Below, piece by piece: positions 35,105-53,707 of a stretch of 64,000 nt of DNA; the first letter of the stretch is position 1, and every line of letters starts with the position of its first letter. The stretch lies in NCBI RefSeq assembly GCF_029318685.1, contig NZ_CP119677.1:3525001-3589000 (forward strand). The letters are read 5' to 3'. The DNA comes from Ruminiclostridium papyrosolvens DSM 2782 (GTDB lineage Bacteria; Bacillota; Clostridia; Acetivibrionales; DSM-1351). The notes under the pieces are model-generated. The model had not been told where the DNA came from. It saw only the letters and a list, made by a program, of their open reading frames with translations, and did not search any database. Position numbers and translations under genes: made by a program.

Positions 35105-37108
35105 TTATTTTATTCCATACTGCTTCTGAATTGATTCAAACAGACTTGCATACTTGGAATTCTTTTTATAAAATGCAGGTGTGAAGCCCATTCCTGCCTC
35201 CACTGTAACTGTTCCGCCCTCATACTCCTTACCTGTCCAAAGGTGAACCCACTGGTCATTTGGAAGATAAACCTCCCATTCCCGTGCATCAGGCAAATAT
35301 ACAGGTGCAATCAACATATCTTCTCCGAATAAATATTCGGTTTGAATATCATATGTTTTTTCATCATTTTCATAATGTAAGAACAGTGGCCTTTGTACAG
35401 GTAGTCCTGAAGCTGCATTAATACTTACAAGACTCTTTATATATGGTGCCAGCATAGTATAGATTTCCGTCAGTCTCGCAAACTGCTCCAAAGTATCTGC
35501 ATCATCATAATACTGGAAGTTTTCCTCAGGCCTGTTTCCTTCATGAGTTCTCATTACAGGAGTAAATACAGCCATTTCAGCCCATCTTAAAAATACTTCC
35601 TTTGTCCTGCAATTATTAAACAGGGAGGTATAACCGCCGATATCACTATGATGCAGGCCACATCCGCTCATTGCAGCACTGAGTGCACCGCAGATTACAG
35701 TAACCAGACCATCGTGCATTGAGAAATCCACACTTTGATCCCCTGCCCACAGCAGTGTACAGTATTTTTGAGAACCGGCTCCTCCTGCTCTCATAAAGTA
35801 TACTATTTCCCCAAGCTTTCCTGTTTCTACAAGAGCTTCGTAGTTGCATTTTGCCCAAAGGACAGGCCAGTGATTGTGTTCTATCATCGCCGGAGAGCCA
35901 TTGTATAACTGTAAATCTGTAGGTAGGTATTCCCCGAAATCAGCCATCCAACCATCTATTCCAAATTCAATAATATGTTTTTTTATCAGCTCTTTAAACC
36001 ATTCATAAGCCTTGGGATTTGTAAAATCTACAACACCGCAGTCAAACTCTCCAAAATCCACAAGATAATCATTTCCGTCAAGAGACTTAGCGAAATATCC
36101 CTTTTCCTTGCCTTCCTTATACAAATCTCCCTCTTTTACAAGGTACGGGTTGTTATAAGCAAGGAATCTGATATTTTTTGCTTTATATTCCTTAATTTTT
36201 TCAGGCAACTCAGGATACATTTCCTGATTCCACTTCCAGTTCCAGTTAAGGCGCTTACCAAATGAAGTGATTCTCTTTCCCGCCCAATCCTGACACCAGA
36301 CACCTGAGACTTTAATCCCATTTCTAAGAGAACGGTCAACAAGAGCGAAAGAGCGTTCTGTGCCTCCTTGAAGCCCAAGGATTGCCCCATTATATATCCA
36401 GTCAGGCAATTCTACCTGTCTTCCAAGAAATCCGGTGAGCTTTTCAAGCAACTCAATATAGGTAGGTGCGGCTTCAATCCTAATCTGCTTTGGCACTTCC
36501 CATATTTGCAATTCATGAAAAGCTTTGTTTTTGAAGTTAAAATCCGCATAAGCAGTTGAATCAACATGGAGGTAATAGTGTTTGGTTGATACGTAAGTAG
36601 GCTGAGGATAATTAGTATTGTAATAGTCTCCTCCGGCTTTATTCTCCACATCAGACCTCCAGGTTACATAGGTAGTTTTATCCCTGCCCACACCCGGCTC
36701 CGACGTCCAGAGCGGAAAATTTCTCCCTCGCAGATTAAAATAGGACATCTGCTCTCCGCAACCGAAACATTTTTCGTTTTCATCGGCATCTATTCTAATC
36801 CAAAATCTGTTGATTTTATCATCTTTCTTTTCAAAGTCCATCAAGAACCTATTATCTTCGATTTTAATATTAGCCGTTAATTTATTTTCAAAATTTAATG
36901 AATATCCATTGTTAATTTTTTGTATAGTAAAACTCTTTAATGGATATCTTTCAATTACATAATCCTTGATATCAAAGTTTCCTCTATACATCTCCACAGT
37001 TTCATTGCCATACCCTATATAAATAGACGGATTTTCTGCCGTGTGATGAATAATACATTTATCCTGATATAATAGCTTAAAGCCATCATTTAGTTTAACT
37101 AGTTCCAT
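35105..37108 (-). CDS. GH31 sulfoquinovosidase (YihQ/SftG-type)
   Basis: 667 aa from ATG 37108 (GGAGGAGAAATA before it; the longer frame from 37144 lacks a site). Closely resembles E. coli YihQ from memory: VWCQDWAGKRITSFGKR then LNWNWKW near residue 272. The Gln, and the Arg and Trp 13 and 16 residues later, match the sulfonate-binding Gln288/Arg301/Trp304 of YihQ. The nucleophile Asp is in GWMADFGEYLP (about 386), the acid/base Asp in WAGDQSVD (about 455), and HHSDIGGYT carries the Tyr508 equivalent. No signal peptide, so it cleaves imported sulfoquinovosides (such as sulfoquinovosyl glycerol) in the cytoplasm. Last gene of the ABC importer operon. An ordinary alpha-glucosidase is unlikely given these residues. 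Confidence 0.88.
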   Translation of the reverse strand: MELVKLNDGFKLLYQDKCIIHHTAENPSIYIGYGNETVEMYRGNFDIKDYVIERYPLKSFTIQKINNGYSLNFENKLTANIKIEDNRFLMDFEKKDDKINRFWIRIDADENEKCFGCGEQMSYFNLRGRNFPLWTSEPGVGRDKTTYVTWRSDVENKAGGDYYNTNYPQPTYVSTKHYYLHVDSTAYADFNFKNKAFHELQIWEVPKQIRIEAAPTYIELLEKLTGFLGRQVELPDWIYNGAILGLQGGTERSFALVDRSLRNGIKVSGVWCQDWAGKRITSFGKRLNWNWKWNQEMYPELPEKIKEYKAKNIRFLAYNNPYLVKEGDLYKEGKEKGYFAKSLDGNDYLVDFGEFDCGVVDFTNPKAYEWFKELIKKHIIEFGIDGWMADFGEYLPTDLQLYNGSPAMIEHNHWPVLWAKCNYEALVETGKLGEIVYFMRAGGAGSQKYCTLLWAGDQSVDFSMHDGLVTVICGALSAAMSGCGLHHSDIGGYTSLFNNCRTKEVFLRWAEMAVFTPVMRTHEGNRPEENFQYYDDADTLEQFARLTEIYTMLAPYIKSLVSINAASGLPVQRPLFLHYENDEKTYDIQTEYLFGEDMLIAPVYLPDAREWEVYLPNDQWVHLWTGKEYEGGTVTVEAGMGFTPAFYKKNSKYASLFESIQKQYGIK

Positions 37109-37148
37109 TATTTCTCCTCCAGGCATATTTTTCGCGAAAATCAAAGTA

Positions 37149-38018
37149 TTAACCCTTTACAGCACCACTTGTCAAACCCGATATAACCTGTTTCTGGAAT
37201 AACATGTATCCAATAATACTAGGAGCTATACTGATAATAATTGCAGCGTACATAGAAACGTAATCTGTAGTAAACTGGTTTGTAAAATATCTGATACCTA
37301 TCTGTATAGTTTTTGTAACCGGTGATGAAGTAAGAAGATTCGCATATACGAATTCATTCCAACAGGTTATAAATTCAAAAGTTGCCGCTGTTACCAAACC
37401 TGTTTTAGTTAATGGTAAAATCATTTTAAAGAATCTTCCGTAAAATCCGCTTCCGTCAATATAAGCGGCTTCTTCTATTTCAGCAGGGAAGCTGGCCATA
37501 AACCCACGAATAATAAAGGTTGAAATAGGTAATCCGATTGCAGCGTAAAGAATAATTAATGCACCTAAAGAATCTACCAGACCCATTTTACTGAATATTG
37601 AAAAATAAGGAACCATAAGTGCATTAAGAGGAACAAGTACACCTACTGAGAATAATGTAAATATGACTTCTCTACCTTTAAACTTGAAACGAGATAAACA
37701 GTATGAAAGCATAGCGGCAATCAGAACGTTTATCACTGTAGCTGTTACAGCAACAATAACAGAGTTTGAAATCATTCTGCCTAGATTTGCTTGTTGAAAT
37801 GCATTTACATAGTTCTGCCATTGTGGTACCGCAGGTAAGGAAAATGGATTATCGAAATATTCCGCATTAGTTTTCAATGATGTAATAAACAGCCATAATA
37901 GTGGAAACAATGTATATACTGCAAAAAATATGATTAAAACCCATTTAAAAAACGATGTTAAGTAATCTTTGATGTTCTTTTTATCTCTTACAATTGACTG
38001 AGTAGTTTTCGCTGACAT
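37149..38018 (-). CDS. Sugar ABC transporter permease, MalG type
   Basis: 289 aa with six predicted membrane helices; the EAA loop EIEEAAYIDGSGFYGRFFKMILP contacts the ATPase. Second permease of a CUT1-type importer, 12 bp after the MalF-like gene and 40 bp before the GH31 gene. No ATPase gene is present, so a shared MsiK-like ATPase elsewhere must power it. Likely imports a sulfoquinovoside, judged from the linked hydrolase. Confidence 0.9.
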   Translation of the reverse strand: MSAKTTQSIVRDKKNIKDYLTSFFKWVLIIFFAVYTLFPLLWLFITSLKTNAEYFDNPFSLPAVPQWQNYVNAFQQANLGRMISNSVIVAVTATVINVLIAAMLSYCLSRFKFKGREVIFTLFSVGVLVPLNALMVPYFSIFSKMGLVDSLGALIILYAAIGLPISTFIIRGFMASFPAEIEEAAYIDGSGFYGRFFKMILPLTKTGLVTAATFEFITCWNEFVYANLLTSSPVTKTIQIGIRYFTNQFTTDYVSMYAAIIISIAPSIIGYMLFQKQVISGLTSGAVKG

Positions 38019-38030
38019 ATTTCTCCTCCT

Positions 38031-38903
38031 TTACTCCTTATTTAATTTAGCAAATACACCACGAATGAGTAAGATAACAAAGGCTCCTGTTAATATAAGC
38101 ATAACGCTGGAAGCATTTGCTCCACCATAGTTATTTGTTTTCATCTGATTGTACAGATAAAGTACAAGCACGGAAGTTCTGTTTGCAGGTCCTCCATTTG
38201 TTAACAGATATACCTGTTCAAACGTTCTTAATCCGAAAATCATAGCCAATGTTACACAAGTCTGAAATGAACCTTTGATTAAAGGTATTGTGATATGAAT
38301 ATGTTGTCTTATTCCGTCAGCACCATCAATTTGGGCCGCTTCATAATAGCTTTCATCAATATTGGTTATATCCGCCAACATTATAACCATATAATAGCCG
38401 ATGTAAAATACCCAATAAATCAGCATACACGGAAAAGCAGTTTTTACTGTACCAAGCCAGTTTGTTGCATATTCACCAAGACCTATGGCTCTCAGCAAAC
38501 CGTTAATCAAACCGAATTCGCTGTTGTACATTGCTGCCCATAACATGGCGAGAGCAATTCCCGAAATAACCTGTGGCAAAAAGTACACTGTTCTGAAAAA
38601 TTGCCAACCTCTTGGTTTCTTTGATAATATTAATGCCATAAGCATTGCGAGAGGAACCTGCACGCCTCCGGCAACTACAGCCCACAGAACATTGTTTTTT
38701 ACACTGCGCCAAAATACTTTATCACTAAAAATATCCCTATAGTTATATAACCCTTTAAATATAGGAGATGTAATCCCGTTCCACTCAAAAAGACTGGTTA
38801 TTGATACATAGCCTACCGGTATAATAAAGAATAATGTAAATAGTGCAAGTCCCGGCAATATAAAGATGCAGATGTTTTTTATGTCATGTTTTTTAACTTC
38901 CAT
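38031..38903 (-). CDS. Sugar ABC transporter permease, MalF type
   Basis: 290 aa; ATG 38903 is preceded by GGAGGCAGGAGCG, whereas the longer frame start at 38930 is not. Six helices, EAA loop YYEAAQIDGADGIRQHIHITIP. Partner of the MalG-like permease. Separated from the binding-protein gene by a stable stem-loop. Confidence 0.9.
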   Translation of the reverse strand: MEVKKHDIKNICIFILPGLALFTLFFIIPVGYVSITSLFEWNGITSPIFKGLYNYRDIFSDKVFWRSVKNNVLWAVVAGGVQVPLAMLMALILSKKPRGWQFFRTVYFLPQVISGIALAMLWAAMYNSEFGLINGLLRAIGLGEYATNWLGTVKTAFPCMLIYWVFYIGYYMVIMLADITNIDESYYEAAQIDGADGIRQHIHITIPLIKGSFQTCVTLAMIFGLRTFEQVYLLTNGGPANRTSVLVLYLYNQMKTNNYGGANASSVMLILTGAFVILLIRGVFAKLNKE

Positions 38904-38957
38904 CGCTCCTGCCTCCATCATCCGAACCAACTCAAAATAATATAGTCGTTATTTTTA

Positions 38958-38985
38958 CTTTGGCAGGCTGTAAAGCCTGCCAAAG
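38958..38985 (-). other. Intra-operon stem-loop between binding protein and permease genes
   Basis: CTTTGGCAGGC and GCCTGCCAAAG are perfect 11-bp arms around a 6-nt loop. Such a hairpin after the binding-protein gene commonly protects its mRNA or partly terminates transcription, so more binding protein than permease is made. Confidence 0.7.
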
Positions 38986-39018
38986 CACTTCAATTTTTTG
39001 TATTGATTATAGTATTAT

Positions 39019-40335
39019 TTATTTTGCAGCTTTTTTTAATTCTGCAACAAACTGCTCTGGAGTATATTCTCCAAGAATAAGACCTTCAAGTGCTGGTGGG
39101 AATGCTGTTACTACCTTTGTAGGCATTGCAGACTCAAATGTTCCTATCATATATGGAGCAGCAGTACTTTGTTCAATCATTGTAGCCTGAAGCTTTTCTG
39201 TTTGATCAGTAATCTTAGACTTGATAGTAAATATTGAACCTGATGAATTTGACAATTCAGTCACTCTGTCAACATCACAAATATATTTTAAGAACTTAAC
39301 TATTGCTTCTTCTTTTGCAGGATTGTCCTGCTTAGCAGCAGCTATGTAAGCCTGAACTGCATTTACGTATGCTCCTGACTTACCGCCATTGTAGCCTAAA
39401 CCTGCACTGATAGCCAGATTGTCATATAAGCCCTGAACACCTTCTTTTTTAATTCTGGATAAAATCCATGATCCGTTTGTATATATTGCTGATCTTTCAT
39501 TAAAGAAATGTCCGTTTACAACTGTAGCATCAGCTCCAAGTGCATCAGGAGAAGTGTAAGTAAACATCTTTTGCATTATCTTTGCAGCTTCTACAAATGC
39601 AGGATCATCCAGTCCTTTTTGATAAACATCAGGTCCTCCTGCTGCTGCGAGCGCATATGAATACCAGAGCATTGAAGTCCATGCGTTTTTATTTGTCATC
39701 TGTGCAGTTGGGAATATCTTTTTAGCTTTTAGTGCATCACAGACTTTCCACAACTCTTCGTAAGTAGTAGGAACATTACTTATTCCCACGCTGTTTAATA
39801 ATTTCTTATTAAACATTATTGCAATAACCGCATTCTCATATGGGAGTGCAAAGTTTTTGCCCTTGTACTGAGATGTCTTAATTACACCTTCTGCAAATTT
39901 ATCAGCCCATTCCTTATCAGCCAAGTAGGAAGTGAGATCCATTAACTTACCTGATTCAGAATACAACTGTAGGTCTGCGCTTGATTTGAAGGTAAAAATA
40001 TCAGGTGCATTACCAGTTGATATCATAGCCCTAATCTTATCTTCATAAGCATCATAATCTGTGTATTCTTCAATTTTTACTTCGATTTTAGATTCATTTT
40101 CCTTGTTGAATGAATTAACCATCTGACCAAAAACTTTTGCTTTTCCGTCTGTTCCAACCCAAATACTAGGGAAAGTGATTACAACCTTTTCAGTACCTGT
40201 ACTTTTCCCGTTTGTTGAATTAGAGGTTGAATTTGTCGACTGGCTTACATCTGATTTACCACATGCTGCAAAAATCGCCATTGTCATTGAAAGAACTACC
40301 ATTAATGCCATAATACGTTTGATAATCTTCCCCAT
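39019..40335 (-). CDS. Sugar ABC transporter substrate-binding lipoprotein
   Basis: 438 aa. Lipobox after MALMVVLSMTMAIFAAC, then a Ser/Thr/Asn linker. The mature part is an extracellular solute-binding protein family 1 (CUT1) with VVITFPSIWVGTDGKAKVFG, PDIFTFKSSADL and the ISAGLGYNGGKSGAYVN stretch. It captures the sugar outside the membrane and delivers it to the permeases. First gene of the operon binding protein-permease-permease-GH31; the ligand is inferred to be sulfoquinovose or its glycoside. Confidence 0.92.
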   Translation of the reverse strand: MGKIIKRIMALMVVLSMTMAIFAACGKSDVSQSTNSTSNSTNGKSTGTEKVVITFPSIWVGTDGKAKVFGQMVNSFNKENESKIEVKIEEYTDYDAYEDKIRAMISTGNAPDIFTFKSSADLQLYSESGKLMDLTSYLADKEWADKFAEGVIKTSQYKGKNFALPYENAVIAIMFNKKLLNSVGISNVPTTYEELWKVCDALKAKKIFPTAQMTNKNAWTSMLWYSYALAAAGGPDVYQKGLDDPAFVEAAKIMQKMFTYTSPDALGADATVVNGHFFNERSAIYTNGSWILSRIKKEGVQGLYDNLAISAGLGYNGGKSGAYVNAVQAYIAAAKQDNPAKEEAIVKFLKYICDVDRVTELSNSSGSIFTIKSKITDQTEKLQATMIEQSTAAPYMIGTFESAMPTKVVTAFPPALEGLILGEYTPEQFVAELKKAAK

Positions 40336-40962
40336 AATTGTTAACCTTCTTTCTCATATTATTTTACCAAATAAAAATTTTACCCTGCTGTATGGATTTT
40401 AACATTGGGCACAAGCTATATTTTTAGGCATTTATACCAATTCTTCAATAAATTAAAACCTTTAATTTATTGAAGAAAAAAATAAAACTTGTCGGTGGCT
40501 ATCCAGTCATTAAGTAACCCTTGGGTTCGTTATGTTACTAACAACTATACATATTCACCAAAAACATTAGTTTACAATGGCAATTATATATCATATATGA
40601 TAAAAAGTAAACAGTTATTTTATATTTTTCGACTTAATAATACATTTAATAAATTTCACATTTTGTACGGTAAAATTATTTGTTTAAATATTTTAATTAT
40701 GTCGCACTTCTTTAAGTATCTCAGTATTAATTGGCCTAATACGGGTACTCATGCAGCCATAGTATTTTAAGTCCAACGGATTGAAAGATTTTGATTACTA
40801 TGATATTCTTAAATAAAGTTCTGCATAATATATTTTCTGGCTTTTTTATTAACACTTATAATTAATTTCTCTTTTACGATATTAATTACGAGATATATTT
40901 CCATATATTGTGTAGACAGCTTTATATTTTTTTGTAATATATTATATTTATAAGGAGACTCT
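40336..40962. other. 627-bp divergent regulatory region of the sulfoquinovose locus
   Basis: Very AT-rich. It contains the palindrome at 40441-40477, and promoter elements are expected at both ends: on the plus side a TAGACA-N17-AATATA-like pair just before AAGGAG and the ATG at 40963. The open frame 40489-40770 has no ribosome site and atypical composition, so it was not called as a gene. Confidence 0.6.
40441..40477. promoter_or_regulatory. 37-bp perfect palindrome, operator candidate for the ROK regulator
   Basis: Arms of 17 bp (TTCTTCAATAAATTAAA and its complement) around ACC, about 105 bp upstream of the binding-protein start. No T-run follows on the plus strand and none is clear on the minus strand, which favours an operator over a terminator. 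Confidence 0.5.
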
Positions 40963-41628
40963 ATGATAAACTATTTAAAACAATTAAATCCTGCTCTGCA
41001 AATAAAAAGTATATTAGATGAAGCTTTTTTAAAGTATGGAAAAGTACTTGACCAATATGACTTTTCCCAATGTATTGAAATTACCAAAACCAAAGGTATT
41101 CCCGATTCCGGTAATGTGTATGTTGCAAGTGACGATGAACTAATGAGCACAGCTATTGCAAAAGAGCTTAGTAATAGGTTTTATGGTAACATGCCTATTC
41201 AGATAGGATATTGCAACGGTAACAGTACTATGCTCAACGCTCTGGAATACCACAAAGGCTCTGAGATAGATGTAGCTGTAACAGATTTGGTACTTATTTT
41301 AGCAGATATAAGAGATATTAAGCATAATCAACTGCCAAGTACATCAACTGAGATTTTCTTTGTTCCACAAGGAACTGCTGTTGAACTATATGGTACTACA
41401 CTGCATTTTGCCCCCTGTAAAGTATCAGATAATGGGTTTATGAGTATAATAGTACTTCCTGAGGGAACTAATCAGCCACTCCCATCTATTCCGTCCCCCA
41501 TATGTGAAGAGGATAAGCTTTTATGGATGCAGAACAAATGGTTAATTGCCCACAAGGATAGTATTCCGGCATCTAAAGGAGCATGTGTAGGAATAACAGG
41601 TGAAAATATTGAAATAAAATACAAATAA
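40963..41628 (+). CDS. DUF4867 protein, candidate sulfoquinovose isomerase
   Basis: 221 aa, ATG behind AAGGAG. Cupin-like beta-rich protein: VYVASDDELMS, IQIGYCNGNSTMLNALEYHK, GSEIDVAVTDLVLILADIRD, FFVPQGTAVELYGTTLHFAP. The TLHFAPCKV part and the LEYHKGSE His/Glu pair look like metal-binding cupin residues. I recall that DUF4867 proteins have been assigned as the sulfoquinovose-to-sulfofructose isomerase in Firmicutes sulfoglycolysis clusters; this should be checked. Divergent from the importer/GH31 operon and followed by the ROK regulator gene, a good context for that role. It might be any aldose isomerase. Confidence 0.7.
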   Translation: MINYLKQLNPALQIKSILDEAFLKYGKVLDQYDFSQCIEITKTKGIPDSGNVYVASDDELMSTAIAKELSNRFYGNMPIQIGYCNGNSTMLNALEYHKGSEIDVAVTDLVLILADIRDIKHNQLPSTSTEIFFVPQGTAVELYGTTLHFAPCKVSDNGFMSIIVLPEGTNQPLPSIPSPICEEDKLLWMQNKWLIAHKDSIPASKGACVGITGENIEIKYK

Positions 41629-41658
41629 TTTTAAGATAACATAATCTAAGGAAAAGAA

Positions 41659-42897
41659 GTGAGAACTATGGATCAATCCGCAAATGGAATTAACATGCTG
41701 GGAGTTAAGATAAAAAACAGGAGTTCAATTTTATATTTGATTTACCGTTCAGGTGGTATCTCCAGAAAGGAGATAGCCAATAAGCTTAATTTGACTCCGG
41801 CTGCAATTACTCTGATTACAACTGACTTGATTAACGAAGGAATCCTTGTTGAATCTGCAGTGGAACAAAATAACAATCGTAAGGGACGTAAAGAAATCCT
41901 TTTAGATATAAACAGAAAAAAATATGCAACTATCGGTATCTATATAAGTACTAATAAATTTCAGATACTATGTATGGACTTGAATAATATTGTTATTTTT
42001 GAAGATACAGTATTTACAGCTGATTGTCACAAGAAATCCTCAGCCATATTAGATAAGGTATGTACAATTTTGGAGCATAACCTTATTTATTATGATATAG
42101 TCAGAACGAGAACTATTCTGGGTGTCGGTGTAAGTGTTAAGGGTATTGTAAATTCCAGAGCCGGAGTGAGCATTAATTCTTATAACGTCTGGGAGGATAA
42201 TGTTAATGTTGTTGAATATATTCAGAAAAGAATGAAGGTTCCCGCAATATTAACAAACAATATCTGTTCTCTGGCACATGGAGAAAGTTTTTTTGCAAAC
42301 ATGGAGCATCCCAAGGATATGCTGTTTATAAAATACGGCCCCGGTGTGGGAGCAGCCAGAGTATTTTATCAGGACACATTAAGTGTTTATGATTTCAATG
42401 CAATTCAACTGGGTCATACTATCGCAGACCCCAACGGTGCAATATGTGAATGCGGTAACCGAGGTTGTCTTGAAACCATCGCCGGATACGATGCTATCGA
42501 AAGAAATGCCGCCAATATATTATCAAACAAGCTGACGCCATATCTCTTCTCATACACAGACGGAAACACAGAAAATATAAATATAAAAAATATAATAAAA
42601 GCATACTATGATGGAGATAAATTGATAGAGGACATTCTTGACAGGTCTATTTATTTTCTGTCTATTGCAATAAAAAATGCAATGTGCTTGTTTGACCCAA
42701 AATCAATAATTTTGTACGGCGAACTTTTTGAAAACGAAAAATTCCGAAAGAATCTGTATATACATTTATCAAATTACTCAGGTTATGAAAAAGTAACCTT
42801 CAGCAGCTTCAATCTGCAATTGGAAACTCAAGGGCCTGCTTCAACCATAATAAACTTTTTCTTTGAAAACGGCGGCTTAATAGATACAAAGGATTAA
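41659..42897 (+). CDS. ROK-family transcriptional regulator
   Basis: 412 aa (GTG 41659 with AAGGA upstream; ATG 41668 is an alternative). N-terminal winged HTH: SGGISRKEIANKLNLTPAAI, then a ROK sugar-binding/kinase-like domain with the zinc motif CECGNRGCLE near residue 270. DNA-binding ROK proteins (XylR/NagC type) usually repress sugar genes and are released by the sugar or its product. Co-transcribed with the DUF4867 gene and facing the importer operon, so it is the likely local regulator of sulfoquinovose genes. It ends at a strong terminator. Confidence 0.88.
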   Translation: MRTMDQSANGINMLGVKIKNRSSILYLIYRSGGISRKEIANKLNLTPAAITLITTDLINEGILVESAVEQNNNRKGRKEILLDINRKKYATIGIYISTNKFQILCMDLNNIVIFEDTVFTADCHKKSSAILDKVCTILEHNLIYYDIVRTRTILGVGVSVKGIVNSRAGVSINSYNVWEDNVNVVEYIQKRMKVPAILTNNICSLAHGESFFANMEHPKDMLFIKYGPGVGAARVFYQDTLSVYDFNAIQLGHTIADPNGAICECGNRGCLETIAGYDAIERNAANILSNKLTPYLFSYTDGNTENINIKNIIKAYYDGDKLIEDILDRSIYFLSIAIKNAMCLFDPKSIILYGELFENEKFRKNLYIHLSNYSGYEKVTFSSFNLQLETQGPASTIINFFFENGGLIDTKD

Positions 42898-42915
42898 ATT
42901 ATATTTTGCATAACT

Positions 42916-42937
42916 TGCGGGTTCTTCAGAACCCGCA
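42916..42937 (+). terminator. Terminator after the ROK gene
   Basis: TGCGGGTTCT and AGAACCCGCA form a perfect 10-bp stem with a 2-nt loop, followed by TTTATTATTTT. Confidence 0.85.
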
Positions 42938-42964
42938 TTTATTATTTTAATGGCAAAAAAATAA

Positions 42965-43003
42965 CTGATGCACAGTGAATATAATTTATTCTCTGTACAT
43001 CAG
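42965..43003 (-). terminator. Terminator of the sulfoglycolysis operon
   Basis: On the minus strand CTGATG-ACAG pairs with CTGT-CATCAG around an AT loop, followed by TTATTTTTTT, 20 bp after the EamA stop. Confidence 0.7.
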
Positions 43004-43022
43004 TCTCTATACCTTAATCAGT

Positions 43023-43934: not shown

Positions 43935-44998
43935 TAAATCATGTATCCCCTTACAAGTTTTAATAATTCGTCATAACCGCCAATAAACCCGGATACTGTG
44001 GTTCTGAAGCCGCCATATTTTTCGAATTCGTTATACTTCATTCCAAATTCGTCAAAGGATTTTTGAAATTCGCTAAGCTTTTTGAGTTGATTCATGTATT
44101 CTTCTTTAACAGGTATTTCAATTCTGCTTACAACTTCGATTTCACATGAGTTCAGTTTTTTATGCCAGTTGAAAGGAATAGTCATTGACAAATCCCCACC
44201 TATTAATTGTGACCAATGGTGATGGTTTCTGCATGCCGCTGAAAGCAATCTGGTTTTATAGCCTCTTTCCTTAAATATTCTGTAGGCTTCTTTCATAACA
44301 GCAACCCCTGACCATTCCATGATTTCAGGATCAACAATTATATCATTTTCGTCAGCATATTTCTTCATCCAGTCATCAGTCCTGCCTATCATTATTGTGC
44401 AAACAGGTGACATAGCGTCAGTTGACAGACCTTCAGCTTCTCTTCTCTTTAAACCTCTTTCAACAGCTTCGGCAACTGCAACAGCCTGTGCAACAGTGAA
44501 AGAAACAGTTGCATTAATACTGATTCCTCTGTAAGTTGCCTCTTCCATTGCCTTAATTCCTGCTTCTGAGGCAGGCATTTTTACCTGCATATTTTCGCCA
44601 AGGCTATTGATAACATCTGCTTGCTGTAACATTTTTTCAGTATCTCTGTAATACTTGGGATTAGTCTGAATTGACAGTCTGCCCTTTTTACCCTTTGACT
44701 CACTGAAAATAGAAAGAAGCTTTTTTGATCTAAGTTTACCTATTTCATAAATCAGAGCCCATGCCACATCTTCTTCAGTCATGTCTTTTCTTTCTGCAAC
44801 CATTTCTTTTATACGCTTTTCCCAAATAGCCAATTCTCCCTTGATAACAGAACCTACTATAGCAGGATTACTTGTAGCACCAACACAGCCTCTCTCCAAT
44901 GCGTAGTTCAGTTCGTTTTCACCACAGGAATCCATCCATATATCCGTATTTGGAAATTTAACTACCGTTTCATGTAATTTGCCCTTAAATGTGCTCAT
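43934..44998 (-). CDS. Transaldolase-family protein, 354 aa
   Basis: DIWMDSCGENELNYAL and VGATSNPAIVG at the N-terminus match the D-x-x...G-x-T-x-N-P region of transaldolases. MQVKMPASEAG holds the Schiff-base Lys, and INATVSFTVAQAVAVAEAVE is the conserved follow-on strand. It is longer than the TalC type and divergent from classical TalB, so its donor/acceptor may be unusual. In sulfo-TAL pathways a transaldolase splits 6-deoxy-6-sulfofructose to 3-sulfolactaldehyde and moves the dihydroxyacetone unit to glyceraldehyde 3-phosphate. A second, TalC-like enzyme lies in the same operon (46438-47118), so roles may differ. Confidence 0.82.
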   Translation of the reverse strand: MSTFKGKLHETVVKFPNTDIWMDSCGENELNYALERGCVGATSNPAIVGSVIKGELAIWEKRIKEMVAERKDMTEEDVAWALIYEIGKLRSKKLLSIFSESKGKKGRLSIQTNPKYYRDTEKMLQQADVINSLGENMQVKMPASEAGIKAMEEATYRGISINATVSFTVAQAVAVAEAVERGLKRREAEGLSTDAMSPVCTIMIGRTDDWMKKYADENDIIVDPEIMEWSGVAVMKEAYRIFKERGYKTRLLSAACRNHHHWSQLIGGDLSMTIPFNWHKKLNSCEIEVVSRIEIPVKEEYMNQLKKLSEFQKSFDEFGMKYNEFEKYGGFRTTVSGFIGGYDELLKLVRGYMI

Positions 44999-45085
44999 AA
45001 TTTAACCCCCTGTATTTTTTAAATGCTTTTGTTAAGGCAATTACCATCAGTTTGTTATCTGAAAAGTAATTGCCCTATATTTTTA

Positions 45086-46402
45086 CTACTCTATAACTTC
45101 GTAATTCATCATTTTTGCTGCCAGTCTCAATACATCTCTGTACTCTCCGTACAGCATAGCCAGATGGTGTGCGACACCTGTTTCTGTTACTGTATTGAGC
45201 AAGTCATTTATGTTCTGTTCAAATTTTACCTTTGTGTAAGTTCCGCAGAGCTGTTTCTTCATTTCTATTGACTCACCTGCTGCAAGGAACATTCTTGTTT
45301 TTCCGCGGGCAGTGTCAAACCTTATAAGATTAACATGTCCCTCTTTCATTACAAACCCTGCAGTTACACCTTTACCTCCGGCAAAATAAGTATCCAGTGT
45401 TCTTTCACTCTTTCCGTCCCACAGATTAGCCGGTGCAACACCGCAATGCCACATAAGAGCAAAATCTTCCTGGAGATCAACTTGTGAAAGGTCTGCAAGG
45501 AATGGTGTTTCAGCACCCAATGCAGCTCCTGCCAACATGGATAGAGCACCTTCAACGTCACCCTCACAGGATAAAATTATTCCTTTTGATTGAAGAATAG
45601 ACATTGCTGCACAAGGTGAAATTCCGTAATTTGCTGCAAATTCCGGCCAGCATCTTACTGCTACTGCCGTAAGGCCATTTTTCTCAACAAACTTAGTAGC
45701 ACTTACACAAAGCTGAGCAACTTTTTTAACCTGTGTATCATTTACTTCCTTACATATGAATAAAGAGCGGACTTCCTTTTCTTCTTCTTCAATTTCAACA
45801 TCTGTAACAGGCTGTGAAAACATATCAGCAATTTCATAATGGTCTATCAAAATGCCTGTTTTCTGATAGATATCCATGTCATCAACACCAACATTAAAGA
45901 ATCCGTGTGCACGATAGCCTACAAGTCCTACCCTTGCATTTTGGAGAGCAACCTTTACTCTCAAGGCATCTACCCATTTTTCGTCAATGCTGTCTCCTAT
46001 AGTGCAGGAGTAGTCATCCTTTCCTGTCTTATAAAGATTGGAAGCATTGAGGTTCAAACCGCAGACAGCATTCAGACGAATTTTACCGCCGTCGTAAGGA
46101 AGCTCATTGTACGCCCAGAGTAAAAATGGCTTTTTAATGTATTTTGCAAAAATCAAGGCCAGATGTCCTAAATGGAAAGTACCGCTTATTATAACAACAC
46201 CATCTACATTTGCTGCTAAAAGCTTAACCGCTGCATCTTCTGCATCTTGTATTTCAATTACGCATTCTTCAATAAACGTATAGTCCACATCAGGCAGCTT
46301 TTTCAAGTCTTCAATTGTTTTTGTATACATTGCCTGTGCTGTCTTGTATTCATAAGTAGTTCTGGTCAGACAAACAACTCCAAGTTTAACTTTTTGTTTC
46401 AT
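45086..46402 (-). CDS. L-fucose/L-arabinose isomerase-like protein
   Basis: 438 aa from ATG 46402 (GGGAGATACT before it). Signature residues of the FucI/AraA superfamily: Glu in RCWPEFA, Asp in CEGDVEGALS and His in LMWHCGVAP, which bind the metal ion. It is shorter than FucI (about 590 aa), as in related 'fucose isomerase-like' proteins. It probably interconverts an aldose and ketose in this pathway, perhaps sulfoquinovose or the C4 sulfo-sugar. With the DUF4867 and RpiB-like proteins it gives three possible isomerases in one locus. Confidence 0.8.
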   Translation of the reverse strand: MKQKVKLGVVCLTRTTYEYKTAQAMYTKTIEDLKKLPDVDYTFIEECVIEIQDAEDAAVKLLAANVDGVVIISGTFHLGHLALIFAKYIKKPFLLWAYNELPYDGGKIRLNAVCGLNLNASNLYKTGKDDYSCTIGDSIDEKWVDALRVKVALQNARVGLVGYRAHGFFNVGVDDMDIYQKTGILIDHYEIADMFSQPVTDVEIEEEEKEVRSLFICKEVNDTQVKKVAQLCVSATKFVEKNGLTAVAVRCWPEFAANYGISPCAAMSILQSKGIILSCEGDVEGALSMLAGAALGAETPFLADLSQVDLQEDFALMWHCGVAPANLWDGKSERTLDTYFAGGKGVTAGFVMKEGHVNLIRFDTARGKTRMFLAAGESIEMKKQLCGTYTKVKFEQNINDLLNTVTETGVAHHLAMLYGEYRDVLRLAAKMMNYEVIE

Positions 46403-46437
46403 AGTATCTCCCATCTACGCATACAGCGTTCGTAATA

Positions 46438-47118
46438 TTATTCTTTTGCTGTACCATCCCAAGCATTTCTGAATACACCTAATCCATATGCTGTAAAAGG
46501 ATGCTCAAAGCTTGCCTTGTATACATCCAGTCCACAGGTTACAATGTCTGCACCCAGGGCTGCGAAATCACCGATTTGCTTACCGTTTCTTACTGCTGCA
46601 ACAATTATTTCAGTATCAAAGCCGTAGTTTCTGTATATATCAATAATGTCAGAAATATAATCTATTGAGTTGTCACCGCTGTTTTCCTTCCAGCCTACGA
46701 AAGGTGAAACAAACTTAGCTCCAAGTTTTCCTACAGGAATTGCCTGTGATGGAGAAAATACCAGTGTAACGTTTGTTCTTATTCCCATTTTTTCAAGCTT
46801 TTTAGCGGCAATCAGTCCCTGTTCTGTACAAGGAAGCTTTATTACGTAGTTTGGTGAATAAGATGCGACTTCCTTAGCTGCTTCAACTATATCCTCCCAC
46901 TTATCATGATGTGGATTGATTTCGAAGGATACTGGAAACTTATCCATACCCTCAATTCCTTCTTCCTTTATCCATGCTGCTACATCTTTAACAACCTGCA
47001 TAAAAGGCTTTCCGCTTAATTGAATATGTTTTGGGTTAGTTGTAACACCATCAATACAAAAATTTTCGTATGCATACTTGATTTCGTCCAGTTTTGCACT
47101 GTCTAAAAAATATTTCAT
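46438..47118 (-). CDS. TalC-like transaldolase / fructose-6-phosphate aldolase family
   Basis: 226 aa from ATG 47118 (GAGGGAAACTTCT before it). FLDSAKLDEI and DGVTTNPKHI match the TalC/FSA family; VIKLPCTEQG carries the Schiff-base Lys. Short decameric enzymes of this group act as transaldolases or aldolases on ketoses. In the operon it could cleave sulfofructose (sulfo-TAL) or feed transketolase products back to glycolysis. Its place next to the RpiB-like and transketolase genes fits both ideas. Confidence 0.85.
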   Translation of the reverse strand: MKYFLDSAKLDEIKYAYENFCIDGVTTNPKHIQLSGKPFMQVVKDVAAWIKEEGIEGMDKFPVSFEINPHHDKWEDIVEAAKEVASYSPNYVIKLPCTEQGLIAAKKLEKMGIRTNVTLVFSPSQAIPVGKLGAKFVSPFVGWKENSGDNSIDYISDIIDIYRNYGFDTEIIVAAVRNGKQIGDFAALGADIVTCGLDVYKASFEHPFTAYGLGVFRNAWDGTAKE

Positions 47119-47173
47119 AGAAGTTTCCCTCACTTTTCTTAATTGTTTTGGTTATTTGTTTTGGTTGTTTGGT

Positions 47174-47650
47174 TTATTTATAAATCTCATCTTCAATATT
47201 TTTAACTTGTATTCTTGCATTTCTTAAATTCTTTGCTCGCCATTCTTCAAGGTTCTGTGTAAATTCCGTATTAAGGAAGGTGTCTACCATGGCACAGCCC
47301 ACAATTTCGGCAGTAAGCCAGCCGCCAAGGCATAAAATGTTAGCATCGTTTATAGCTCTGGCTTTTTCAGCAGCATATGTATTTTCACAAACTGCTGCAT
47401 ACACTCCCTTGTGCTTATTAGCAACAATTGATACTCCCATACCGGTACCGCAGATTAATACAGCTCTTTCAAATTCCCCGTCTGATACTCTCTTTGCAAC
47501 TGCCGAAGCTACTTCAAAATATGGTTTGGGTTCCTCTTCGTTGAGTGTGCCACCGTCAGTAACTTCATAACCCAACTGTGTCAAATGTGCTTTTATAGCT
47601 TCCTTTAATGGAAAACCTGATTTGTCGGAACCAATAATTATTTTTTTCAT
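47174..47650 (-). CDS. RpiB/LacAB-family sugar isomerase
   Basis: 158 aa. IIIGSDKSGFPLKEAI at the N-terminus, LICGTGMGVSIVANKHKGVYAA (G-T-G-x-G with the catalytic-site loop) and CENTYAAEKARAINDANILCLGG are RpiB hallmarks; the active-site Cys of RpiB is at LICGTG. Known members isomerise ribose 5-phosphate or allose/galactose phosphates. In the described sulfo-TK pathway an RpiB-like enzyme converts 4-deoxy-4-sulfoerythrose to the ketose; location beside the transketolase fits that. A plain pentose-phosphate isomerase is the alternative. Confidence 0.87.
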   Translation of the reverse strand: MKKIIIGSDKSGFPLKEAIKAHLTQLGYEVTDGGTLNEEEPKPYFEVASAVAKRVSDGEFERAVLICGTGMGVSIVANKHKGVYAAVCENTYAAEKARAINDANILCLGGWLTAEIVGCAMVDTFLNTEFTQNLEEWRAKNLRNARIQVKNIEDEIYK

Positions 47651-47660
47651 AAAATCCCCC

Positions 47661-48605
47661 TTATCTTTTCATGGCTATGGCTTTTTCAGCTGCCAGAACT
47701 ATTTCTTTTTCAGTAAGTCCATATTTTTCTTTCAGAAAGTCTGTAAAACCTACTTCTCCAAAGGTATCCTTTACTCCAACTCTCTGTACTGGAACAGGAT
47801 AGTTTTCGCTGAGGTATTCTGCAACTGCTCCTCCCAATCCGTTGAGTATGGAATGATTTTCGGCGGTTACAACTGCTCCCGTCTTTCTTGCACTTTGCAG
47901 CACAAGTTCTTCATCTAAAGGTTTAATTGTATGAATATTTATTATTTCTGCGTCTATTCCTTTTGCAGACAGTGTTTGAGCTGCCTTCAAAGCCTCCGCC
48001 ACCATTATTCCGCTTGCCAGAATGGTAACATCTTTTCCCTCTTTAATAACAATACCCTTACCAAGTTTGAATTCAGTATTGTCATCAAATATCTGAACTG
48101 CATTTCTTCTTAACAACCTTATATATACAGGGCCGTAATGCTCTAATATTTGTGGGAAAATCTTCTTTAACTGAGCGCTGTCTACGGGTTCGTATATAAT
48201 CATATCCGGTATATTTCTCATAATTGCTACATCTTCCATACTCATATGAGTACCGCCATTAAGCTCTGCAGTCACTCCGGGGTCACTACCCATAATCTTT
48301 ACATTCAGTCCTGCATAAGCAACTGATAATGTAACCTGATCACATACACGTCTTGTAGAAAAAGGAGTAAAGGTATGAGTAAACGGTACTTTTCCCATTG
48401 CAGACATTCCTGCTGCAACTCCAATCATATTTGCTTCCTGAACGCCGCAGTTTATAGTTCTTTCGGGAAAAGTTTCACCAAAGCGTGTAGTTCCAGCCGC
48501 CTTCATAAGGTCAGCTTCTACTATAACAAGTCTTTCATCCTGCTTTGCATATTCTATCAGCAGGTCTACATAGGTCTCTCTTAACCATCTGTTTTCAAGT
48601 ACCAT
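47661..48605 (-). CDS. Transketolase, C-terminal subunit
   Basis: 314 aa carrying the pyrimidine and C-terminal domains: RFGETFPERTINCGVQEANM (the Glu that contacts TPP), AVVTAENHSILNGLGGAV. It follows the N-terminal subunit gene after 2 bp, so the active transketolase is a two-subunit enzyme. It transfers C2 units between ketoses and aldoses; here the presumed donors are sulfofructose and sulfoerythrulose and the acceptor is glyceraldehyde 3-phosphate. Confidence 0.92.
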   Translation of the reverse strand: MVLENRWLRETYVDLLIEYAKQDERLVIVEADLMKAAGTTRFGETFPERTINCGVQEANMIGVAAGMSAMGKVPFTHTFTPFSTRRVCDQVTLSVAYAGLNVKIMGSDPGVTAELNGGTHMSMEDVAIMRNIPDMIIYEPVDSAQLKKIFPQILEHYGPVYIRLLRRNAVQIFDDNTEFKLGKGIVIKEGKDVTILASGIMVAEALKAAQTLSAKGIDAEIINIHTIKPLDEELVLQSARKTGAVVTAENHSILNGLGGAVAEYLSENYPVPVQRVGVKDTFGEVGFTDFLKEKYGLTEKEIVLAAEKAIAMKR

Positions 48606-48607
48606 AA

Positions 48608-49438
48608 TTATGCATCCTCCCTTTTATCCAGTAATTCCACGGCCTTTTTCCATGTATCATCGGAAATAGGCATATTATGAGAGGCAACACTATTTTCACA
48701 GAAAAATCCACCCTTACCCTTAATGGTATTTAAAATAATCATATGTGGTTTTCCTTTAATCTTCTTAGCATTGTCAATGGCATATAAAATTTGTTTTAAA
48801 TCATGTCCGTCAATTGTTTGTACATGCCAGCCAAAAGCTTCCCATTTCCTGTCCAGAGGTTCAAGTCCATTTACTTCCTCTATCAGACCGTCAATCTGCA
48901 TTTTATTGTAATCTGTAAAGGCTATGATATTGTCAAGGCCTCTGCTGCCTGCCAGCATGGCTGCTTCCCAAATCTGCCCTTCCTGACTCTCTCCATCTCC
49001 GATAATTGAGTATACATAAAGACTTTTCTTATCCATTTTAGCTGCAACCGCCATTCCTGTTGAAGCTGAAAATCCTTGGCCCAGTGAACCTGTCGACATG
49101 TCGATACCATTTGTTCTCTTCATGTCACAGTGGCTTGGAAGGTTTGTATTAGGCTTGTTCAGGGTATCTAATTCCTCCATTGGAATAAAACCCTTTAATG
49201 CCAGTGCCGAATACAGTGCCGGACCTCCATGGCCTTTTGATAAAACCAACCTGTCTCTGTTTTCCATTTTTGAATCATTTGAATCAATGTTCATAACTTC
49301 AAAATAAAGTGCTGACAAAACTTCACAGAGTGATAATGCTCCACCTATATGTCCAACACCAAGTTTCCCAATGGTTTGTATGGTTAACTTCCGTATTTCA
49401 CATGCTCTGCTTTCAAGCATTTCAATTTTGTTATCCAT
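48608..49438 (-). CDS. Transketolase, N-terminal (TPP-binding) subunit
   Basis: 276 aa. GVGHIGGALSLCEVLSALYF, LSKGHGGPALYSAL and the TPP motif IGDGESQEGQIWEAAMLAG (G-D-G...) mark the PP domain. Partner of the C-terminal subunit gene immediately downstream; the pair corresponds to a full transketolase of about 590 residues. Split transketolases occur in many Firmicutes; the link with sulfosugars is by context. Confidence 0.92.
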   Translation of the reverse strand: MDNKIEMLESRACEIRKLTIQTIGKLGVGHIGGALSLCEVLSALYFEVMNIDSNDSKMENRDRLVLSKGHGGPALYSALALKGFIPMEELDTLNKPNTNLPSHCDMKRTNGIDMSTGSLGQGFSASTGMAVAAKMDKKSLYVYSIIGDGESQEGQIWEAAMLAGSRGLDNIIAFTDYNKMQIDGLIEEVNGLEPLDRKWEAFGWHVQTIDGHDLKQILYAIDNAKKIKGKPHMIILNTIKGKGGFFCENSVASHNMPISDDTWKKAVELLDKREDA

Positions 49439-49494
49439 TTGCTACCTCCAAATCTTTGACTACCAAATAATCATTAATTTATTTTAATTTTTCA

Positions 49495-50616
49495 TTATAG
49501 AATTGATTTAAGAAGTTTATAAACTGTTTCCTTATTCATTTCAGCCGGAGTTAACTGTATAATCGCAGCTCCAAGACCAACTTCTGTTATATGCTCTAAG
49601 TCAGTTTCCTTAACTCCGATTTGGTGTAAACGTACAGGCATATTCATACCTTTCATAAGCTCTTCAATTGCTTCGGAGAATTTCTCCAGACTTTCAAAGC
49701 CAAGGTAATCTGTCAGAGCTTTCATTTTTGCTTCAGCCTGCTGTCCGCTGATTTTTATAAATGCAGGAAGAGTTATGGAGCAGGCAGTTCCATGGTTTGC
49801 TCCAAATTCTGTTGTTAATGGAAAACTTAATGCGTGTATACCGGTTGTTCTTGTCTGGCTGAAGGCAATTCCTGCAATCAGACTGGCCTTAATCATTGCT
49901 GCTCTTGCTTCCTTATTTGTAGGTTCGCTGTACGCAGTTTTTATATTGTCAAGTATCAGCTTCATAGCACCAATTGCAAGCATATCGCAAATTGGCTGTG
50001 ATGCCTTGTTCCAGTATGCTTCAATCGCATGGCAGAAAGCATCCATTCCTGTAGATGCCGTAACCGGAGCCGGCAAGGTATATGTAAGCTCACAGTCAAT
50101 TATTGAATAGTCAGGCCAGAATTCATTATTAACCATTGGCATTTTTATGCCGGCCTTTTTGTTTGTATATACACCAACATTTGTTACTTCGCTGCCTGTT
50201 CCGGCAGTTGTTGGAATACATACCAGAGTTGCCTGTCTCTTTGACAGTGTCCTGCTGCCGCCGCTGTAATAGTCATAAATGCTGCCTTCGTTTGTAACCA
50301 GACAGGAAACTATTTTTGAAATATCAAGAGCGCTTCCGCCACCTAAACCGATAACGCAATCAGCGTTTATAGCTCTTGCAACTTCTGCTGCTTTATCAAC
50401 GCTTTCACATGAAGGATTAGGCTCCACATCACTAAAGTAGGCAACATTTTTACCTGACATACCTTCTCCGATCTGTTTTGCAACACCGGACTGATAGAGA
50501 AAAGGGTCTGAAATAATCAGAACATTCTTTCCGCTGATATACTTATCAACTTTCTTAGATATTCCGGCCTCAAAACATATTTTGGTAGGCATAAAAAATT
50601 CAAATTGGTTATCCAT
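49495..50616 (-). CDS. Iron-containing alcohol dehydrogenase (candidate sulfolactaldehyde reductase)
   Basis: 373 aa, first gene of the operon. [17 protein letters not shown] binds NAD(P); the metal His residues lie in FCHAIEAYW and ANHGTACSI, and an upstream Asp in TGMDAF completes the site. Group III Fe-ADHs reduce aldehydes or oxidise alcohols. In fermentative sulfoglycolysis 3-sulfolactaldehyde is reduced to 2,3-dihydroxypropane-1-sulfonate to balance NADH; this is the obvious candidate here. Not related by sequence to E. coli YihU (a beta-hydroxyacid dehydrogenase). Confidence 0.87.
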
Positions 50617-50742
50617 AACTTATTCCCCTCCTGAAAATAATTATTTTGCAACTTTTATATTTGATTAATCTTTTTAATTCAATTTCCAAATTTTTTTAAA
50701 TTTATCTATGGATTTCGACATCTTTCGTCTCTTTATGTATAA

Positions 50743-50772
50743 ATTATATTGCATTTCACTGTGGTATGTCAA
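50743..50772 (-). promoter_or_regulatory. Promoter of the sulfoglycolysis operon
   Basis: On the minus strand TTGACA (50772-50767), 18-bp spacer, TATAAT (50748-50743): near-perfect sigma-A boxes. The start would lie near 50736, giving a leader of about 120 nt before the dehydrogenase ATG at 50616. Confidence 0.75.
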
Positions 50773-50820
50773 CATATTTTTAAAGGATTTAATTAATTAG
50801 ATTCAATGAGTTAAAATAAT

Positions 50821-50856
50821 AAGACCGTATAAAAATTAAGTATTTTATACGGTCTT
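50821..50856 (-). terminator. Terminator of the gldA-dhaKL operon
   Basis: AAGACCGTATAAAA and TTTTATACGGTCTT form a perfect 14-bp stem with an 8-nt loop, 43 bp after the DhaL stop, next followed on the minus strand by ATTATTTT. Confidence 0.8.
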
Positions 50857-50898
50857 GATATTTTTAGTATTGAGTTCAATTATCTTTAATTAAATTTT

Positions 50899-51531: not shown

Positions 51532-51553
51532 ATCTTGTACTTCCTCTCGTTTT

Positions 51554-52546: not shown

Positions 52547-52563
52547 ATGCGTTTACTCCTATT

Positions 52564-53646: not shown

Positions 53647-53707
53647 AAAAATAAACCACTCCTTTAAATTTAATATAGAAATGAAATTAAATACTAATTA
53701 CATTTTC

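Follow-up and report, generated by a model that had tools for sequence, protein, structure and literature searches.

The gene set described here, from the anaerobic bacterium Ruminiclostridium papyrosolvens DSM 2782, very probably degrades the plant sulfur-sugar sulfoquinovose (SQ), and its gene content suggests that it does so with two cutting enzymes simultaneously. It lies in a window of 64,000 nucleotides (the whole stretch of DNA that was analysed, positions 3525001-3589000 of a one-contig genome of 5.03 Mb), where it spans 35105-53646, plus a regulator up to 54829, and includes a glycerol dehydrogenase and a dihydroxyacetone kinase. We put at roughly 0.85 the probability that the locus encodes the anaerobic use of SQ and SQ glycosides, predicted from its sequence to follow the published bifurcated pathway in which a sulfo-transketolase (sulfo-TK) and a sulfo-transaldolase (sulfo-TAL) route are combined. 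By gene content, order, residues and conservation, the cluster is well conserved and belongs to a kind first described in print in 2024, and all of the reactions and products that we give for it would follow those of its published relatives. The hybrid layout is real but already in print; the part that may be new is the role of the second transaldolase, F2.

Every named gene is an intact open reading frame whose family is confirmed by model matches, as an earlier note on this DNA had it; the bounds drawn there, 35105-50616, do enclose such genes, but the locus continues beyond them into gldA-dhaK-dhaL and a PocR-type regulator (50899-54829). The features are listed here in window coordinates.

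35105-37144, minus strand: glycoside hydrolase family 31 (GH31) sulfoquinovosidase of the YihQ family, likely start M13 (PRK10426 1026 bits, cut-off 553)
37149-38018, minus strand: ATP-binding cassette (ABC) permease 2, by family models
38031-38930, minus strand: ABC permease 1, by family models
39019-40335, minus strand: sugar ABC transporter solute-binding protein (PF13416 109 bits)
40441-40477, no strand: perfect 17-nt inverted repeat upstream of the binding-protein gene, candidate ROK operator
40963-41628, plus strand: SqvB/SftX, a DUF4867 cupin, proposed mutarotase or ring opener (PF16161 262.7 bits, cut-off 28.7; structure 9gyy E=4.6e-67)
41659-42897, plus strand: ROK-family repressor (PF00480 126 bits, plus MarR/HTH)
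43023-43934, minus strand: EamA permease, candidate isethionate exporter, with a 1-base overlap with F2 (PF00892 94.5 bits)
43934-44998, minus strand: F2, second transaldolase-family enzyme (PF00923 150 bits; D23, Q111, K140, R206, A255, R257)
45086-46414, minus strand: SqvD/SftI-type SQ isomerase with a fucose-isomerase C-terminal domain (NF048012 201.7 bits, cut-off 700; PF02952 41.2 bits)
46438-47133, minus strand: F1, sulfofructose (SF) transaldolase (SftT/SqvA), likely start M6, 226 aa (structure 8bc3 320.5 bits)
47174-47650, minus strand: SqwI, RpiB-family isomerase for 4-deoxy-4-sulfoerythrose (PF02502 154 bits; PRK05571 146 bits, cut-off 135)
47661-48605, minus strand: SqwH, second transketolase (TK) subunit (R9, A36, D108 and R166 at the published RAFDR site positions)
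48608-49438, minus strand: SqwG, thiamine pyrophosphate-binding subunit of the split SF transketolase (PRK05899 257.5 bits; the cut-off of 488 is for the whole enzyme)
49495-50616, minus strand: SqwF-type Fe-dependent dehydrogenase, probable sulfoacetaldehyde reductase (SarD 240.6 bits, ErcA 238.7)
50813-50864, no strand: terminator-like inverted repeat between dhaL and sqwF (22-nt arms, 91%)
50899-51531, minus strand: dihydroxyacetone kinase DhaL (TIGR02365 178 bits, cut-off 138)
51554-52546, minus strand: dihydroxyacetone kinase DhaK (TIGR02363 468 bits, cut-off 406)
52564-53646, minus strand: glycerol dehydrogenase GldA (PRK09423 537 bits, cut-off 336)
53825-54829, minus strand: AraC-type regulator with a PocR sensory domain, adjoining gldA-dhaKL (PF10114 158.7 bits, HTH_18; TransRegPocR 210.6 bits, cut-off 500)

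Three signatures carry the assignment to SQ. The glycosidase belongs to the GH31 sulfoquinovosidase family, with 6pnr as its best solved structure, followed by 8r56 and E. coli YihQ (5aed). F1 is, by close homology, a sulfofructose transaldolase: the nearest solved structure is the SF transaldolase 8bc3, the first other transaldolase follows at 158.6 bits, and alignment with E. coli TalB and FsaA finds D6, E66, K94, W143, A175 and R177, the residue set, including the W-A-R sulfonate motif, that has been described for this enzyme (PMC11659671); an identity of 62% to 8bc3 is the published figure for Faecalicatena F1. The fucose-isomerase-like protein has the SQ isomerase model SftI as its sole NCBIfam match, and no solved-structure relative of it was found. 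These three make it extremely improbable that the block is devoted solely to an ordinary sugar without a sulfonate group, even if the R-A-D-R positions of SqwH are shared with transketolases outside SQ loci.

By homology, the SF transketolase subunits, the sulfoerythrulose isomerase, the SF transaldolase and the SQ isomerase are all co-located here. The same block, in the same gene order, is found in two congeners (the stretch beyond dhaK is visible in one, L052), and because they keep the same genes in this order the block is not a chance assembly; G242, a genome of the same genus, carries the cluster. F2 occurs in three of eight Ruminiclostridium genomes sampled and in all three lies within the same block.

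In the pathway that we envisage, the ABC importer and the GH31 glycosidase would deliver SQ, which the FucI-type isomerase would convert to SF. SqwGH would transfer two carbons from SF onto glyceraldehyde 3-phosphate, the RpiB-type SqwI would isomerise the leftover sulfoerythrose to sulfoerythrulose, and SqwGH would then cut again; the resulting sulfoacetaldehyde would be reduced by the Fe-dehydrogenase, and the EamA permease may carry the product, isethionate, out of the cell. F1 would also cut SF, to sulfolactaldehyde and a C3 unit, and glycerol from SQ-glycerol, together with any free dihydroxyacetone, would enter through GldA and DhaKL. The published sulfo-TK route runs through SqvD, SqwGH, SqwI, SqwGH and SqwF, ending in sulfoacetaldehyde and then isethionate (PMC9594981). 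The earlier note had a sulfolactaldehyde reductase as one of its requirements, but that enzyme belongs to other routes, and it is a sulfoacetaldehyde reductase with which this one ends. Key enzymes of both routes are indeed encoded, as was claimed, but there is no sulfolactaldehyde reductase within the locus, and no PF14833 protein was found in the genome or in the two congeners (the control was positive in 9 of 14 genomes; the genome-wide search did not extend to reductases of other types or to aldehyde dehydrogenases). The sulfo-TAL arm is, on this count, not complete. Nor is there a surplus among the three isomerase candidates noted before, since the FucI-like protein fits the step from SQ to SF, the RpiB-like protein that from sulfoerythrose to sulfoerythrulose, and the DUF4867 protein is a cupin. 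To read a third isomerase as the sign of an unknown sugar was an idea that we rejected: DUF4867 proteins, of which 9gyy is a solved relative, are known companions of SQ clusters and common in them (PMC11968277). The alternative that had been offered, a hybrid or a pathway for an undescribed sugar, thus holds in its first half, and the second is not needed because the hybrid has already been published with expression and product data.

Several points weigh against this assignment. The sulfoacetaldehyde reductase and the SQ isomerase both score below the cut-offs of their curated models; the SarD match (cut-off 700) is the best for the Fe-dehydrogenase but ErcA is nearly tied, and by these scores it is no named equivalog. 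The four SqwH residues are the same letters in all 24 loci that combine F1 with SqwG (below), and they are also found in L171-L173 and L175, outside SQ loci (4 of 4 aligned transketolases from one other family, L175 holding a paralogue of the transketolase of locus L174), with R-S-D-R in L177 and R-S-S-R in L185; these positions are not diagnostic for sulfofructose transketolase and prove little. When the block is set beside Faecalicatena, in which the cluster was first described, the window has a GH31 enzyme where Faecalicatena has an NAD-dependent sulfoquinovosidase. Its SQ isomerase belongs to another subgroup (26% identity to that of F. contorta, L057), and of its importer the two permeases match L057 at 94 and 150 bits while the binding protein is unmatched. 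GldA-DhaKL, lastly, is accompanied by a regulator of its own, with a terminator-like repeat on the side of sqwF, and could be a neighbouring glycerol operon. It is this repeat, lying between the two genes, that leads us to think that dhaL and sqwF are probably in two transcription units.

As for regulation, the perfect inverted repeat at 40441-40477 is a candidate operator for the ROK repressor. Both congeners retain its 31-nt core (L032 for one; L033 and L052, which are one contig, for the other). When up to 3 mismatches are allowed, the window has a single copy of the candidate, and the half-site has 7 matches, against 5.3 expected by chance.

What does F2 do in such a pathway? To see in what company it is found, an F1 alignment was scanned against a genome collection, the best 80 of 342 relatives were kept as loci, and gene presence was scored by tblastn with the window proteins (a match of at least 100 bits). 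SqwG is present in 24 of these 80 loci, which we call hybrids, and F2 is in all 24, with 23 strong matches and, in L083, an 80-residue fragment at a contig edge (46% identical, 76 bits). Among the 56 loci lacking SqwG, F2 is found in L063 only, which is probably a cut hybrid, its F1 beginning at base 543 of the stretch and an RpiB gene being present. SqwH and SqwF each occur in 24/24 hybrids and 0/56 others, RpiB in 23 hybrids (not L060) and in L063. This co-occurrence of F2 and TK across F1 loci is new in the present analysis. The pattern is not that of one clade alone: when F1 is clustered at 80% identity, hybrids are spread over 7 of the 15 clusters, and two of these are mixed.

The same survey separates the loci by their C3 enzymes. 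A sulfolactaldehyde-reductase-type gene is present in none of the hybrids and in 36 of the 56 others; the query, from L104, itself matches HIBADH best (202.5 bits) and sulfolactaldehyde 3-reductase next (165.9), both under cut-off, and the match is weak in L072 (29% identity) and cut by the contig end in L124. An aldehyde dehydrogenase resembling the one in Bacillus loci occurs in 0/24 and 11/56, so that one or the other is found in 47 of the 56 non-hybrid loci and in none of the hybrid stretches. The nine remaining non-hybrids are L063, L122 (a 4-kb contig) and seven without any sulfoquinovosidase, SqvD or SqvB match. Flanks reach at least 5 kb either side of F1 in all 24 hybrids, and 8 kb in 18 of them. 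Of the 56 loci without TK, 29 extend 8 kb in either direction, and the reductase or the dehydrogenase is found in 25 of the 29.

The seven loci just mentioned (L090:10001-20130, L084, L086, L087, L094, L100 and L125) have F1-like genes that are 62-65% identical to F1 of the window, and L090, the only one examined by family models, has as neighbours a triosephosphate-isomerase-like protein, a LarA-family isomerase, DUF4838, an amidohydrolase and an SsuA-type sulfonate binding protein (under cut-off). They may serve the breakdown, through a transaldolase, of some other sulfonate or sulfosugar. In four hybrids (L070, L071, L074 and L102) a 362-364-aa protein stands between F2 and SqwF, of which the copy in L044 is weakly M24-peptidase-like (23.6 bits, cut-off 23). 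Besides the hybrid L044, genome G110 has a second SQ-type locus, L170, a short contig whose SqwG is 74% identical to that of the window.

Loci with the transketolase and without F1 offer the converse comparison, and one SQ locus of this type was found, L174 (genome G199). It holds ROK, SqvB, sulfoquinovosidase, SqvD, RpiB, Fe-dependent dehydrogenase (ErcA 248 bits best, SarD 197), TauE exporter, split TK and ABC importer genes, but neither F1 nor F2; it counts as sulfo-TK by context, because G199 encodes another transketolase that shares 75% identity with the SqwG of L174. One search for further TK-only loci gave none in 51 genomes. Another gave 5 of 398 genomes at E<=1e-90, the four besides the window genome being 51-55% identical, and a third gave 5 of 22, with L174 the only SQ locus among the places annotated (G199, G109 and G310). 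No relative was found in the viral contigs searched, and plasmid transketolases were below 60% identity.

The window genome has a second split transketolase (G000:C1:2640457-2648079, that is L185:7958-15580) with an FGGY kinase, a LacI-like regulator, an apiosidase-like enzyme and a 475-aa protein with a weak SqvD match, a locus that we take to resemble the D-apiose transketolase pathway. In L177:3255-12197, inositol genes, so called for their likeness to IolG, IolE and IolD, lie beside a split transketolase and phosphoglycerate-kinase-like and GAPDH-like genes, without F2, and similar groups occur in L178-L180 and L189 (all of these named by eye).

F2 itself has the classical transaldolase fold in its AlphaFold model (pLDDT 95.5; Z 40.0 and a root-mean-square deviation of 2.1 over 322 residues aligned to 3clm), a model that gives no information on the substrate. 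Alignment with TalB and FsaA places D23, K140, Q111, R206, A255 and R257: K140 is the Schiff-base Lys of classical transaldolases, Gln111 corresponds to FsaA Gln59 and not to TalB Glu96, and Ala255 matches F1 where TalB and FsaA have Ser. F2 therefore lacks both the catalytic Glu and the phosphate-site Ser of the classical enzymes, the TalB site being made of two Arg and one Ser (PMC3962226).

In a tree of 48 sequences, the 25 F2s of SQ loci form one group (with the orphan L034 inside), the neighbours of which are F2-type enzymes from other genera; support for the fork uniting the group as a whole is weak (92/64). Five of the ten non-SQ members of the F2 clade lie among inositol genes (L037:7280-14839, L038:7420-14782, L040:7037-15212, L041 and L042). 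In L038, IolG (507 bits), IolE (440) and IolD (988) are over cut-off and an IolB-like gene (124) is under it; the other four were assigned by N-terminal likeness, with the semialdehyde dehydrogenase of L040 over cut-off. A sixth F2-type gene, in L036 (9409-11473), stands beside IolN (532 bits, cut-off 245), and no inositol gene was recognised near those of L034, L035, L039 and L043. The kinase IolC is over cut-off in none of the five genomes (best 228 bits, cut-off 300; control 3/14), the window genome scoring 192, and no class II aldolase was seen by eye in these stretches, where IolJ was not searched. These operons are a possible kinase-free, transaldolase-type inositol pathway, for which nothing fitting was found in the openly licensed literature, a weak negative. 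The acylating dehydrogenase of L038 is nearest the sulfoacetaldehyde dehydrogenase SauS (593.5 bits, cut-off 600), a sequence match that underlines the likeness of malonate semialdehyde and sulfoacetaldehyde. The inositol link comes from a class sample (391 genomes, 22 with an F2 match); a wider survey of 333 genomes returned only the window genome's own F2.

As the role that we favour, we tentatively propose that F2 may cleave 5-deoxy-5-sulfo-D-xylulose, so that both arms would end in isethionate, a possibility that we offer in the knowledge that it could well prove wrong. F1 would make sulfolactaldehyde, to which SqwGH would add a C2 unit to give the sulfoxylulose, and F2 would cut this at C3-C4 into sulfoacetaldehyde and a dihydroxyacetone unit, the latter being passed to glyceraldehyde 3-phosphate (with fructose 6-phosphate formed) or released as dihydroxyacetone for DhaKL. 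All of the sulfonate would then exit as isethionate via one reductase, and less glyceraldehyde 3-phosphate would be needed per SQ than with TK alone: with free dihydroxyacetone, 2 SF and 2 glyceraldehyde 3-phosphate would give 2 sulfoacetaldehyde, fructose 6-phosphate, xylulose 5-phosphate and dihydroxyacetone (18 carbons on each side), where TK alone would take 4 glyceraldehyde 3-phosphate. Sulfoxylulose would be the sulfonate twin, of equal C3-C4 configuration, of 2-deoxy-5-keto-gluconate, which as a ketose is CH2OH-CO-CHOH-CHOH-CH2-COO- and which a transaldolase would cut to malonate semialdehyde and a dihydroxyacetone unit; this is what the sister enzymes of F2 would do in the kinase-free inositol pathway. 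Such a cleavage would account for the occurrence of F2 with the pair of F1 and TK, and for hybrids that can do without a sulfolactaldehyde reductase. It would also account for the low level of C3 products in the published pure culture, where 6.9 mM SQ led to 5.8 mM isethionate but 0.2 mM sulfolactate (PMC11659671).

There is a good deal to set against the sulfoxylulose proposal. Low F1 flux would equally explain the small C3 products, and TK alone would likewise yield mainly isethionate. Published isethionate yields are below 1 per SQ (5.8 mM from 6.9 mM in the pure culture and 5.4 mM from 8.7 mM in a consortium, PMC11659671; about 7 mM from 10 mM in Caproiciproducens, PMC13219744) and leave room for lost C3 products, and the traces of sulfolactaldehyde and sulfolactate, or of 2,3-dihydroxypropane-1-sulfonate in the consortium, that were excreted in the first of these studies also weigh against it. 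Gln111 is not special to F2, being present in every aligned row, distant ones included, and the pair R206 and R257 is shared with phosphate transaldolases. Because the F1 loci are akin to one another, Fisher values for co-occurrence overstate, and the TK-only comparison consists of the single locus L174. None of five names for sulfopentuloses of this sort or related sulfoketoses was found in the openly licensed literature, again a weak negative.

The strongest rival was put forward by Borusak et al. (PMC11659671), namely that F2 is a fructose-6-phosphate aldolase, which would split F1-made fructose 6-phosphate into glyceraldehyde 3-phosphate to feed TK and dihydroxyacetone for DhaKL. It draws support from Gln111 at the position of FsaA Gln59 (Glu96 in TalB), from the restriction of F2, among the SQ loci surveyed, to those that have both F1 and TK, and from the presence of GldA and DhaK in 8 of 24 hybrids and 0 of 56 others. 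Yet Ala255 replaces the Ser of both TalB and FsaA, and half of the nearest non-SQ kin lie in inositol operons, of whose pathways fructose 6-phosphate is, to our knowledge, not an intermediate. Phosphofructokinase and aldolase would, moreover, give the same trioses, and we judge this role unlikely. It is quite unlikely, too, that F2 duplicates F1 as another (trans)aldolase acting on sulfofructose: the tail pocket (R206/A255/R257) does keep two Arg and an Ala common to F1, but F2 lacks the Trp of the W-A-R motif and was not seen in TAL-only loci, where it would be equally useful.

We are most doubtful that F2, or both transaldolases, are ordinary pentose-phosphate enzymes that recycle xylulose 5-phosphate, which the earlier note had thought the simpler reading. 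F1 and F2 are, it is true, the only PF00923 proteins of the genome, in which no phosphoketolase was found, and annotated transaldolases are mostly absent from cellulolytic clostridia (PMC7029132). That absence, however, goes with use of a phosphofructokinase route, R. papyrosolvens with its two annotated transaldolases being a possible exception (PMC7029132); five of the eight sampled genomes of the genus do without F2, as does the TK-only L174, whose genome is not one of the 22, out of 391, in which F2 was matched; and Gln replaces the transaldolase Glu. Recycling fits F1 badly, given its close homology to sulfofructose transaldolase, and F2 poorly, since in the SQ loci surveyed F2 is found only beside F1 and TK and is absent from L174. 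A phosphoketolase route for xylulose 5-phosphate was considered and rejected, the matches (22-28 bits, nominally above the Pfam cut-off of 23.7) lying in transketolase subunits, namely SqwG of the window genome and of each congener, with the best (2643069-2643461) in L185.

The bifurcated SQ pathway is now placed in Ruminiclostridium, a genus of cellulose-degrading clostridia, and this may explain a published oddity. Among 45 cellulolytic clostridial genomes, only two, both R. papyrosolvens, had annotated transaldolases, two each (PMC7029132); because L052, from R. papyrosolvens C7, carries F1 and F2 within its SQ cluster, we infer that these two transaldolases probably serve SQ breakdown rather than the pentose pathway. 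Should the proposal for F2 be true, the fate of sulfolactaldehyde, left open by the two papers on hybrids, would be solved, a new sulfopentulose intermediate would exist, and a kinase-less inositol pathway would become testable with the same enzyme family. Beside the locus, at window positions 32204-32863, lies a putative resistance gene, whose product scores 332.7 bits (cut-off 300) as a streptogramin A acetyltransferase of the Vat family.

How, then, does the cluster compare with known systems? With the sulfo-TK cluster of Clostridium sp. MSTE9 it shares SqvD, SqwGH, SqwI, SqwF and SqvB, but review accounts of that cluster name no transaldolase and the window has two (PMC9594981, PMC12890257). 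With the sulfo-TAL loci of Bacillus and gut Firmicutes it shares F1, SqvD, SqvB and a sulfoquinovosidase (PMC9594981, PMC12890257), though unlike these it holds no sulfolactaldehyde reductase or dehydrogenase. Like the window, Caproiciproducens KNHs216 and rumen metagenome-assembled genomes have TK and SF transaldolase and no such reductase or dehydrogenase, with isethionate as product; they are reported to be without both known sulfoquinovosidases, whereas the window has the GH31 enzyme (PMC13219744). In that study, from 2026, 10 mM SQ gave about 7 mM isethionate, and rumen Caproiciproducens is described as having the same pathway genes, sulfolactaldehyde reductase and dehydrogenase genes being absent and the fate of the transaldolase product left open. 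The bifurcated cluster was first described for Faecalicatena sp. DSM22707, with both key enzymes, the two transaldolases F1 and F2, GldA and dihydroxyacetone kinase, SQ induction in proteomics, and isethionate as main product beside minor C3-sulfonates (Borusak 2024, PMC11659671). The SQ isomerase gene sits between F1 and F2 in the window, unlike in Faecalicatena, and dhaK and dhaL are separate and stand beside a PocR-type regulator. The two clusters nevertheless share SqwG, SqwH, SqwI, SqwF, F1, F2, a drug/metabolite-type permease, the repressor, a candidate SqvB-type mutarotase, an ABC importer, GldA and dihydroxyacetone kinase, and F2 of the window has the D23, K140 and Q111 published for Faecalicatena F2. 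In F. contorta L057, indeed, the shared genes stand in the same order, the SQ isomerase excepted, with RpiB and DhaL found by tblastn.

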